This document shows, one piece after another, positions 23,960 to 58,133 of a DNA stretch of 64,000 bases. Both the position numbers and the translations under genes were made by a program. Below the pieces are notes generated by a model that had not been told where the DNA came from, made no database searches, and saw nothing but the letters and a program-made list of their open reading frames with translations. Every line of letters starts with the position of its first letter. Position 1 is the stretch's first letter. Origin of the DNA: Haloarcula hispanica ATCC 33960 (GTDB lineage: Archaea; Halobacteriota; Halobacteria; Halobacteriales; Haloarculaceae); contig NC_015948.1 of assembly GCF_000223905.1 (NCBI RefSeq), positions 930,001-994,000 of the forward strand. The letters run 5' to 3'.

Positions 23960-24001
23960 TAGCTGGCCGTAGCGGGTCGCGGTAGAAAAGGGTCGCCTTA
24001 T

Positions 24002-24039
24002 ACTGGTGGCTGTCAGCTTCGCTGCTTGCAGCCGACAGT
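24002..24039. repeat. Palindromic element, short copy (copy D)
   Basis: Ends ACTGGTGGCTG and CAGCCGACAGT are imperfect inverted repeats matching the ends of the longer copies at 41904 and 43397, with the middle reduced to about 16 bases. On the minus strand the element starts exactly one base after the TAA of the DUF655 gene. It occupies most of the gap before ksgA. Confidence 0.55.
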
Positions 24040-24040
24040 G

Positions 24041-24613
24041 TTACGAGGACTGCTCCTCGCGCCGGACGAACAGCCGGTACTTCAGGTCGTCGTCCTGTAG
24101 CTCTTCGAGTATCCGCTCGACAAGTGTCTCTTTGGGGCTGTGGAGGCCGCTGACGCGCTCTTCGAGGTCTTCAAAGCTCTCGAAAGGCTTTCGCTTCCGC
24201 TCGTCGAGAAGCGTGTTCCGGAGCTTCTTCCCGATACCCGGCAGGAGGTTCAGCTGGTGGAGCCGCAGCGTGATCGGCTGGGCGTCGTTGTAGAAGTCGA
24301 CGAACCGCTGTTCGTTCGCTTCGACGATTTCCTCGACGGCGTAGTCAAGCTCCGAGCGGGCACCGCTCGGGATATCCTCGAACTCGACTTCCGTCACGCG
24401 GCCGAACTCCGTCAGGTCGACGCGGTCACCGAATGCAATATCAACGTCCTTGTCGTCGAGCTGGAGCTCGTAAATGTAGAACTCCTCGACGTCGAGCGCG
24501 TACGCGAGCGGCTCCTTCTGGTGCTGTGGCCGGTCGTCTCCGGGCCGCCCGTGTGGGAGGACATCGAGGACAGCCGCCATCATAGAGTCGCCGCCGCTCT
24601 CCGATTCAGTCAT
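24041..24613 (-). CDS. DUF655 HhH-containing RNA/DNA-binding protein
   Basis: A 190-residue DUF655 protein. The central part (DVEEFYIYELQLDDKDVDIAFGDRVDL) resembles an OB/S1-like strand region, and residues about 125-160 hold a helix-hairpin-helix (LNLLPGIGKKLRNTLLDERKRKPFESFEDLEERV), a nucleic-acid-binding motif. It is encoded between Rpb4 and KsgA in many archaea, suggesting a role in ribosome biogenesis or transcription, but its activity is unknown. Start 24613 (MTESESGG) is preferred over 24670. A short palindromic repeat begins one base after its TAA. Confidence 0.8.
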   Translation of the reverse strand: MTESESGGDSMMAAVLDVLPHGRPGDDRPQHQKEPLAYALDVEEFYIYELQLDDKDVDIAFGDRVDLTEFGRVTEVEFEDIPSGARSELDYAVEEIVEANEQRFVDFYNDAQPITLRLHQLNLLPGIGKKLRNTLLDERKRKPFESFEDLEERVSGLHSPKETLVERILEELQDDDLKYRLFVRREEQSS

Positions 24614-24792
24614 GCCAGGCAGTACGACCACAGCACACTTAATGCCGGTGGATGCCCCGAACCGCGACACGGAGCGCCGTCGCTATTTTCGCTTCGGTCC
24701 AGCGGCAGCGGAAACTAGATCTCGACCGCGTAGCTGGTCGTCCGTGAAAGTAGGGATAGAGCGGCGAAGAGCCGAACTGACGATTGTCCTCG

Positions 24793-41850: not shown

Positions 41851-41903
41851 GCCATGGAATCGACACCGCCCCGAGAAAAGGGTTCCCCTCCCGAACTACG
41901 TAT

Positions 41904-41979
41904 ACTGTCAGCTGTAACTATTTCAAGACATCCGCTACCCCGAGGTGGCGAAATTCTTCACAGACGTACAGCCGACAGT
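41904..41979. repeat. Palindromic element, full-length copy (copy A)
   Basis: A 76-bp element with imperfect terminal inverted repeats (ACTGTCAGCTGTAA ... TACAGCCGACAGT) and an inner near-palindrome (ctaccccgaggtggcg) around its centre. It aligns with the copy at 43397 over the whole length, including ATTTCAAGA and GAAATTCTTCACAGAC. It lies between the divergent mscS and PAC2 genes. On the minus strand it is preceded by taac, as at 24040. Confidence 0.75.
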
Positions 41980-42008
41980 GTTACCCCGCGCGGCCCGTCT
42001 GAAAAAAC

Positions 42009-43298: not shown

Positions 43299-43396
43299 AC
43301 GTGGCTTCTTCACTGCCAGCAACAAGAACCTTCGACCCCGATTTCCGTTGCCGGGGACTCGCCTTGCCGGATGCGGAAAACAGTAGTCCGCCTCAT

Positions 43397-43471
43397 ACTG
43401 TTGGCTGTGACTATTTTAAGATATTCGCCACCCCGGGTGGCGAAATTCTTCACAGACTTACAGCCGACAGT
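43397..43471. repeat. Palindromic element, best-preserved copy (copy B)
   Basis: A 75-bp element with ends ACTGTTGGCTGTGA and TACAGCCGACAGT and a central inverted repeat TTCGCCACCC/GGGTGGCGAA with a one-base loop (about 43425-43446). On the minus strand it starts exactly one base after the TGA of the eIF2B-like gene (43473-43475). Matches copies at 41904, 56352 and 24002. Confidence 0.8.
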
Positions 43472-43472
43472 A

Positions 43473-44324
43473 TCAGTACTCGTGGATTCCGTCGTCAGTG
43501 ACGACCGTATCAAGCAGGTGCGTCGGCGTGGCGTCGTAGGCCGGGTTTGCGACCTCGAACCCCTCCGCGGGTTCCCGGAGTACCTCAGATGGTGACCGGA
43601 TCTCGTTTTCGAAGGCGAAGGCCCCGTCGACGTACTTCGCGGCGGCCCCGACGACCGTCACCGGCACGTCGTTGTCCGCCGCCGCCGTCGCAATCGGATA
43701 GGTGCCGATGCGGTTGTACAGCGTGTCGTCGACGATGCAGTCCATGCCGACGAGCACGCGGTCGACCTCTGGCATGAAGTGCCCGGCGGCGCTGTCGACG
43801 ATGAGCGTGATGTCGACGCCGTCCCGGTCAGAGAGGTGGCGGGTCATCTTTCGACCGAGGAAGCGTGGTCGCGACTCCGTCACGTACACCTCGAAGCTGT
43901 GGCCGGCCTCGATGGCGTCGTCGATGGCCGCAAGGACCGTCGAGGAGAAGTCGTGGGTCAACAGCACGTCGTCGTCAGCGATCTCCGACACGGCGCGTGC
44001 AGCGGCGCGGTCTTTCGACGACTCCACCGACTCGACAACGTCGTCGATAGCCTCGGTAGTCAGTTCCTTGGCAGTCGCCACATCGTCGGGGTCCGCATCC
44101 GAGACAGTGGTCACGATTTTGTGCTGAGTGGTATGGAGGGAGGCATGGGAGGGGTTCGCCCGCCGGAGGGCGCTGCTGTTCCGGTCGAGCGAGCGGAGGT
44201 AGTCCTCGACCGTCGGGTACTCCCTGTCAGTCAGGTCCCGGAGCGCCTGGGCGGCTTTGACTGCGACCACGGAGGAACTGTGGGTCTGCATCTCCGAGAT
44301 CTCCTCGACAGTCTCGTCTATCAT
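43473..44324 (-). CDS. eIF2B-alpha/beta/delta-related sugar-phosphate isomerase (R15P isomerase-like)
   Basis: A 283-residue protein of the eIF2B-like isomerase family: VLLTHDFSSTVLAAIDDAIEAGHSFEVYVTESRPRFLGRKM, DITLIVDSAAGHFMPEVDRVLVGMDCIVDDTLYNRIGTYPIATAAADNDVPVTVVGAAAKYV. Archaeal members isomerise ribose-1,5-bisphosphate to ribulose-1,5-bisphosphate for the nucleoside degradation/RuBisCO route; archaeal eIF2B-like regulators cannot be ruled out. The palindromic element at 43397-43471 begins one base after its stop. Confidence 0.78.
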   Translation of the reverse strand: MIDETVEEISEMQTHSSSVVAVKAAQALRDLTDREYPTVEDYLRSLDRNSSALRRANPSHASLHTTQHKIVTTVSDADPDDVATAKELTTEAIDDVVESVESSKDRAAARAVSEIADDDVLLTHDFSSTVLAAIDDAIEAGHSFEVYVTESRPRFLGRKMTRHLSDRDGVDITLIVDSAAGHFMPEVDRVLVGMDCIVDDTLYNRIGTYPIATAAADNDVPVTVVGAAAKYVDGAFAFENEIRSPSEVLREPAEGFEVANPAYDATPTHLLDTVVTDDGIHEY

Positions 44325-56229: not shown

Positions 56230-56351
56230 GTCTGTGCCGCCACGCTGACGACTCCGTTCGGTTCTGACGGCGCCTAGTTCTGCCAGCGACCTGCTTCGGC
56301 GGCGTTCGTCAGTCGACCCGCTACCCGACGTCACTGTCGTCGGTTTCTCAC

Positions 56352-56404
56352 ACTGTTGGCTGTGACTACTGTACGATGTTCGTGGTGGAAAAATTCGGGA
56401 CAGT
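56352..56404. repeat. Palindromic element, degenerate copy (copy C)
   Basis: ACTGTTGGCTGTGACTA at the left end equals copy B, then the centre is diverged (GTTCGTGGTGGAAAAATTC) and the right end is reduced to GGGACAGT, consistent with an internal deletion. On the minus strand it starts exactly one base after the ilvD stop (TGA, 56406-56408). The remainder of the gap (56230-56351) shows no other feature. Confidence 0.55.
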
Positions 56405-56405
56405 C

Positions 56406-58133
56406 TCAGTCCCACTTCGCGCCGGGGTTCGTCACCGCGCCGTTCGCCGCGGAGCCGAAGTCGCTGTGGTACTTCGCCAGCACGCCGCTGTCGTACGTCG
56501 GTTCAGGGTCGTAGTCTTCGAGGCGCTGCTCGATCTCCTCGTCGGTGAGGTCGACCGACAGTTCGTGGTCGTCGATGTCGATGGTGACGGTATCGCCGTC
56601 CTCCAGCGCGGCGATGGGGCCGCCGACGAACGCCTCGGGGGCGACGTGGCCGATAGAGAAGCCCCGAGTCGCGCCGGAGAAGCGGCCGTCGGTGAACAGC
56701 GCCACGTCTTCGGCGTGACCCTGGCCGGCGACGGCCGAGGTCACGCCCAGCATCTCGCGCATGCCGGGGCCGCCCTGTGGCCCCTCGTTGCGGATACAGA
56801 TCACGTCGCCGGACTTGACGCGGCCTTCCTGCACGTACTCCATAGCCCCCTCCTCCTGTTCGAACACGCGGACCGGACCCTCGTGATGGAGGTGGTCCTC
56901 ACCCGTGATCTTGATGACCGAGCCGTCGGGCGCGAGGTTGCCCGAAAGGATGCGGATCGCGCCGCGCTCGTGGATCGGGTCGTCGACCGTGTTGAGATAG
57001 TCCACGTCGAGGTCTTCGACCGTTGGCGGGTCGATCTGTTCAAGTTCCTCCGCGATGGTGTTGCCCGTGACGGTGAGCGCGTCACCGTGGAGCAGGCCGG
57101 CGTCGTGCAGCGCCCGCAACACGACCGGGACGCCGCCGACCTCGTGGAGGTCGTTCATGACTCGCTCGCCGCCGGGCTGGAGGTCGGCGATCTTGGGCGT
57201 GCGGGCGCTGATCTCGTTGAACGTCTCGATATCGAGGTCGATGCCGGCCTCCGCCGCGAGCGCGAGCAGGTGGAGAACGGCGTTGGTCGACCCGCCGACC
57301 GCGACCTGCAGGGCGATGGCGTTCTCGAACGATTCGCGGGTGAGGAAATCCGAGGGGCTGCGGCGTTCCTGCACCACCTCGACGGCGAGTTCGCCGGCCC
57401 GGCGGGCCTCCTCGTAGCGGGACTCGTGTTCGGCCGGCGGAGAGGCCGACCCCAGCGGCGCGAAGCCGAGCGCTTCGGAGATAGACGCCATCGTGTTGGC
57501 GGTGAACATCCCGCCACAGGAGCCCGCACCGGGGCAGGCGTGGCGTTCCATCTCGTCGAGTTCGCCCTCGCTCATCTCGCCGTCGGCGACCGCGCCGACG
57601 CCCTCGAAGACGTTCTGGATGGTGACCTCGCGGCCGTCGTGCTCGCCGGGCATGATCGACCCGCCATAGAGGAAGACGCTTGGCAGGTCCGTCCGGATGG
57701 CGGCCATCATCATCCCGGGCATGTTCTTGTCACAGCCGCCGATGGTGACGATGCCGTCCATGCGCTCGCCGAAGGTGACGAGTTCGACCGAGTCGGCGAT
57801 TATCTCGCGGGAGATGAGCGACGCCTTCATCCCCTCGGTCCCCATCGAGATGGCGTCGGAGATGGTGATGGTCCCGAACTCGATTGGCATCCCTTCGGTG
57901 TCGTCTATGCCGTCGTAGGCGGCGTCCGCAACGTCGTCGAGATGGACGTTACACGGCGTGATGTCGGCCGCTGGATTGGCGATGCCGATCATCGGCGAGG
58001 ACAGGTCCTCGTCGTCGTAGCCCATCGCGCGGAACATCGCGCGGTGGGGTGCCTTCTCGTATCCCTCCGTCACCTCGGTACTCCGGAGGTCCGGGTCCTT
58101 CTCCGGCCGTTCTTGCCGTTCCTGCTTGCTCAT
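56406..58133 (-). CDS. ilvD: Dihydroxy-acid dehydratase
   Basis: A 575-residue IlvD that dehydrates 2,3-dihydroxy-carboxylates in valine, isoleucine and leucine biosynthesis. Conserved Cys residues that hold the iron-sulfur cluster are Cys 61 (TPCNVH), Cys 134 (GCDKNMPG) and Cys 206 ([12 protein letters not shown]). The C-terminal [20 protein letters not shown] is also characteristic. A ttaaataac box (58159-58167) gives a leaderless start at 58133. It is divergent from the MptG-like gene. The palindromic repeat at 56352-56404 abuts its 3' end. Confidence 0.95.

Follow-up and report, generated by a model that had tools for sequence, protein, structure and literature searches.

The palindromic repeat that recurs in a 64,000-nucleotide stretch of the Haloarcula hispanica ATCC 33960 genome (here called the window) is very probably a MITE-like, non-autonomous DNA transposon. 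In this reading, it duplicates a 3-bp TSA triplet within a GAC-TSA-GTC target that stop codons often match, and insertions that fall inside genes are eliminated. At gene ends, the element inserts at the native stop codon and duplicates it, leaving the open reading frame (ORF) intact. Even at equal motif match, stop codons are preferred about 3-fold over the rest of the non-coding sites, an excess that is left unaccounted for.

Structure and distribution of the element

The repeat is one imperfect palindrome of about 78 bp, non-coding and MITE-like, with the ends TACTGYYGGCTGTA in full copies. Full copies consist of two inverted versions of a single 38-bp end, made up of the outer TACTGYYGGCTGTA, a variable spacer, and the inner ATTCGCCACC. 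A first-pass annotation of this DNA had described four palindromic copies sharing inverted ends and, in the two long ones, a core, each starting one base past a stop codon. All four sites proved homologous, two at full length (77 and 78 bp) and two shortened (one of 40 bp with an internal deletion and one degenerate, of 55 bp), and the core is present as the inner part of the 38-bp end. The adjacency to stops is exact; the boundary, however, is TACTG rather than ACTG, so the element adjoins the stop directly, and the supposed one-base gap is the element's own first base.

Three of the four copies lie at the ends of genes on the minus strand. The full-length 77-bp copy at 43396..43472 (plus strand; TACTGTTGGCTGT...(TTCGCCACC/GGTGGCGAA)...ACAGCCGACAGTA; E=1e-24) lies between TCA duplications at 43393..43395 and 43473..43475, the right-hand one of which is the TGA stop of a 283-aa IF-2B family gene (43473..44324; PF01008, E=4e-52). 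The internally deleted 40-bp copy (24001..24040, plus strand) is bordered by TTA at 23998-24000 and at 24041..24043, the latter being the TAA stop of a 209-aa DUF655 gene (24041..24670; PF04919, E=1.5e-61). The degenerate 55-bp copy (56351..56405, plus strand), which scores only E=0.44 with the model and is identified by its end, its target duplication, and its orthologue (L517), has TCA at 56348-56350 and at 56406..56408; the second is the TGA stop of a 575-aa ilvD gene (56406..58133; PF00920, E=4e-126, and PF24877). Pfam backs the DUF655, IF-2B, and IlvD labels proposed earlier, and each stop falls exactly at the boundary. The remaining full-length copy, of 78 bp (41903..41980, plus strand), is off any gene stop, in the intergenic space between the divergent gene starts 41850- and 42009+. 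Its flanking triplets are GTA/TTA, and its counterpart in another genome (G007, L159) has an intact TAA/TAA pair. The TAA that had been taken as a stop for this copy (placed at 41904) exists, but the frame upstream of it spans 44 codons without coding signal. With this copy away from any gene end, the stop rule holds for three of the four window copies.

With up to two mismatches, the window contains ACTGTYGGCTGT 27 times, compared with 8.4 expected from shuffling and a shuffle maximum of 16. The host genome holds 31 copies, namely about 30 places found with a covariance model built from 15 copies and, in addition, the 40-bp copy; the weakest of these host matches (E 0.005 to 0.44) are assigned by their ends and flanking triplets. 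At least 43 copies are present in a relative (G001), where 14 of 40 examined copies are byte-identical over 78 bp. Another genome (G061) has 23 copies in 400 kb, which would extrapolate to well over 100 per genome, and a third (G059) likewise has a very high copy number.

Exact ends occur in 58 of the 146 genomes of the family (Haloarculaceae relatives), and relatives of the element reside on plasmids of Haloarcula, Halomicrobium, Natribaculum, Haloplanus, Halostella, and Haladaptatus. Phages yielded no copy. In viral contigs, 14-mer matches were apparently due to chance, and no copy of the element turned up with an 18-base pattern. Subfamilies keep the palindrome while the letters change (L222, TTCGGCAC/GTGCCGAA; L221, TCTGGCAC/GTGCCAGA), as does a 71-bp form, ATTCGC..GCGAAT (L478 and others). 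In G034, some copies (e.g., C6:13167-13327) keep these ends but are longer, at about 150 to 160 bp.

Insertion, target duplication, and the search for a parent transposon

In 90 of 111 copies, the triplets on either side of the element match exactly, as TGA/TCA in 78 and as TAA/TTA in 12. Among the orthologous loci of eight other Haloarcula genomes, some sites are occupied and others empty. The DUF655 gene, for example, reads TCCTCG-TAA-[40 bp]-TAA-GGCGACCC where the site is occupied and TCCTCG-TAA-GGCGACCC where it is empty (G017, L516). Orthologous sites are also empty for the IF-2B gene (L528, L542, L543, and L545) and for ilvD (L526 and L535), and three more genes (L059, L067, and L053) show the same contrast of occupied and empty orthologues. 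BLAST matches that are split by an insertion have halves that share exactly 3 bp, namely the stop codon. The empty orthologues use this stop although they lack the element; insertion therefore duplicates the native stop and leaves the protein unchanged.

The first-pass annotation had offered, as one of two readings, a mobile palindrome whose end contributes the stop. Mobility is borne out by the terminal inverted repeats, the 3-bp duplication, the identical dispersed copies, and the occupied and empty sites. The second half of that reading, in which genes are shortened by insertion and the stop is carried on the element's end, would fit the fact that the triplet adjoining the element is the stop, and a weakly scored ORF (L071:3608-4015) crosses the target duplication and ends at a TAA inside the element. 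The empty sites of relatives, however, carry the same native stop: in the empty orthologues of six genes, the reading frame closes at the same position, with an identical or a different stop codon, which refutes the idea for those genes, and for three of the proteins the Pfam match runs to the end of the family or close to it. We therefore regard an element-borne stop as extremely improbable as a general explanation. The copy in L071 (host genome, C3:490298) is a possible individual case.

The family has the hallmarks of a MITE, being short and non-coding, with terminal inverted repeats, a fixed 3-bp duplication, and many near-identical dispersed copies. We propose that its paired, inverted 38-bp ends are bound by a transposase supplied in trans, presumably of the DDE type. 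A 3-bp staggered cut would then duplicate TSA, or rarely TWA, within the palindromic GAC-TSA-GTC target. Insertion at a stop would duplicate the codon and alter no residue, and insertions within ORFs would be removed, presumably by selection. In G001, one member of a MITE subfamily is nested in another, with TAA duplicated (L220:3763-3922).

Searches by end and by transposase found no autonomous partner with these ends, although a partner sharing few bases would escape them; the transposase is for this reason hypothetical. No parent transposon was returned by a half-element model applied to the host genome, G033, and G001, by exact-end pairs in the copy-rich genomes G110 and G034, by a genome-wide pattern made to skip intact MITEs, or by a comparison of insertion sequence (IS) boundaries and an end-pair scan of the retrieved DNA. 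The DDE_Tnp_1 loci listed in G001, G061, G059, and G096 are without these ends, and DDE_Tnp_4 gave nothing above the cut-off in five genomes. One locus in G001 (L201, 1008-2498, 1,491 bp) mimics a full-length parent at first sight, with an ORF for a 458-aa transposase; it is really an IS with CATCCG/CATTCG ends that lies inside a MITE copy.

Stop codons as insertion targets

In 18 of the 31 copies in the host genome, the duplicated triplet is the stop codon of an ORF that shows coding signal, where ORFs were called by a codon-usage score rather than a curated gene finder. Across six genomes, 44 of 117 independent insertions lie exactly on a stop (offset 0), and any other offset accounts for at most 3. 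Random distances, which the first-pass annotation had named beforehand as the outcome that would count against it, are thus not what we found. An independently annotated Halomicrobium plasmid (NZ_CP044130.1) agrees: 5 of its 13 copies adjoin an annotated CDS end exactly (12940, 70886, 129982, 150402, and 166626). The same plasmid carries dense clusters of Ser/Thr protein kinases together with HEAT-repeat, vWA, and AAA proteins (L113-L114, about 26-54 kb and 84-97 kb).

Sequence preference explains part of this pattern. At non-stop sites, the target consensus is the palindrome GAC-TSA-GTC (G.46, A.44, and C.61 before the triplet, and the mirror image after it). Non-coding TSA sites that do not match GAC..GTC at all take 0.0009 insertions per site, and the rate climbs with the degree of match, reaching 0.11 where five positions match. 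Before the stops that carry insertions, the most frequent last codon is GAC (12 of 44), and because GAC-TGA, encoding Asp-stop, is a common gene end in acidic haloarchaeal genes, the motif matches stops more often than it matches other sites. Motif stratification gives an odds ratio of 28 for stops against coding sites, a strong avoidance of coding DNA that we attribute to selection. The motif and the loss of genic insertions together account for part of the stop rule.

It could be argued that nothing else is needed, that is, that the element inserts into any non-coding TSA site and reaches stops in proportion to the motif, which by itself favors Asp-stop. A first estimate pointed in this direction, with 10 to 24% of insertions expected at stops; it was biased toward the null because the motif had been learned from stop sites. 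When the motif was learned from non-stop sites only and coding DNA was excluded, 13.0 of 117 insertions were expected on stops, compared with the 44 observed. At equal motif match, stops remained favored over intergenic sites (odds ratio, 3.77), 3' flanks (3.3), and 5' flanks (2.7). We consider it unlikely that there is no genuine preference for stops. The rule announced in the first-pass annotation is accordingly real but statistical, not universal. Selection against insertion into promoters fails to account for the excess, since 5' flanks take insertions as often as 3' flanks. A transposase that senses stops beyond the 9-bp motif, for example by responding to the boundary between coding and non-coding DNA or by being coupled to translation or transcription termination, is conceivable, and we hold this idea with little confidence.

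The other reading in the first-pass annotation was a 3'-end processing or termination signal. Under this explanation, the palindrome is a terminator, an RNA-processing signal, or an mRNA-stabilizing hairpin of the host that is sited by stops for its function. Both full window copies are predicted to form a very stable RNA hairpin (z −5.5 to −9.5), and the adjacency to stops is exact; the palindrome is, however, equally explained by two inverted transposase-binding ends. A larger share of copies lies at stops in the host (18 of 31) than in the remaining genomes (26 of 86; Fisher P=0.009). This is compatible with retention and hints at it, but among the host copies, greater age does not go with a significantly higher frequency at stops (P=0.14 to 0.29). 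Against a host signal, 73 of the 117 independent copies are off stops, and orthologues in sister species end without the element. Rfam gave no match in the window. The common orientation of the window copies, which had been noted earlier, reflects chance: genome-wide, 8 of 18 stop-located host copies are on the gene's strand. Its random orientation, its frequent positions away from gene ends, and the empty orthologues all weigh against a primary role at 3' ends, which we judge to be very improbable. A hairpin placed right after a stop could nonetheless influence mRNA ends.

Relation to known repeats and significance

IS5-family elements of the IS1031 group duplicate a TNA target. Our family resembles that group in its TNA-type 3-bp duplication and short inverted ends, and each of the 90 exact duplications is either TGA/TCA or TAA/TTA. 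Unlike in the IS5 and PIF/Harbinger groups, the central base of the duplication is nearly always G or C (TSA), and we found no related transposase. Tourist-type PIF/Harbinger MITEs such as mPing are similar in the same two features, going by the accessible portion of the source (PMC4561436).

Among haloarchaeal repeats, the closest in form are the MITEs of Haloquadratum walsbyi, which are likewise short, non-coding, and multicopy, with inverted ends and a target duplication. As far as the accessible text of PMC3119063 goes, some of these have no intact partner transposase in their genome; their ends are related to known transposons, whereas our family has no parent that we could find, and neither a GAC-TSA-GTC target nor a stop preference is described for them in that text. 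The same portion of that paper covers two other classes of short, non-coding, mobile haloarchaeal repeats, the SMRs, which have inverted ends without a known transposon, and the PATEs, which are without inverted ends. Neither duplicates its target there, and the present family, with both a 3-bp duplication and inverted ends, belongs to neither (PMC3119063). REP/BIME sequences are short intergenic palindromes able to form hairpins; as characterized in the part of PMC3733652 available to us, they differ from our family, which is without their tetranucleotide end tag and has a duplication and inverted ends. A text search of the literature, which covered few subscription journals, returned no paper on this family or on a stop-codon rule. 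The MITE form is known; the family is new, with an unusual and partly explained preference for stop codons.

Duplicating the stop on which it lands is harmless to the protein and lets the element multiply even where about 80% of the genome is coding. The family occurs widely, and its occupied and empty sites can be compared between relatives. By adding a hairpin straight after the stops of ordinary genes, it provides natural pairs for testing the effects of 3' hairpins on archaeal mRNA. The roughly 3-fold excess at stops that persists once the motif is corrected for can be tested directly; if stops are indeed recognized, this would be a mobile element that uses gene ends as safe harbors genome-wide.
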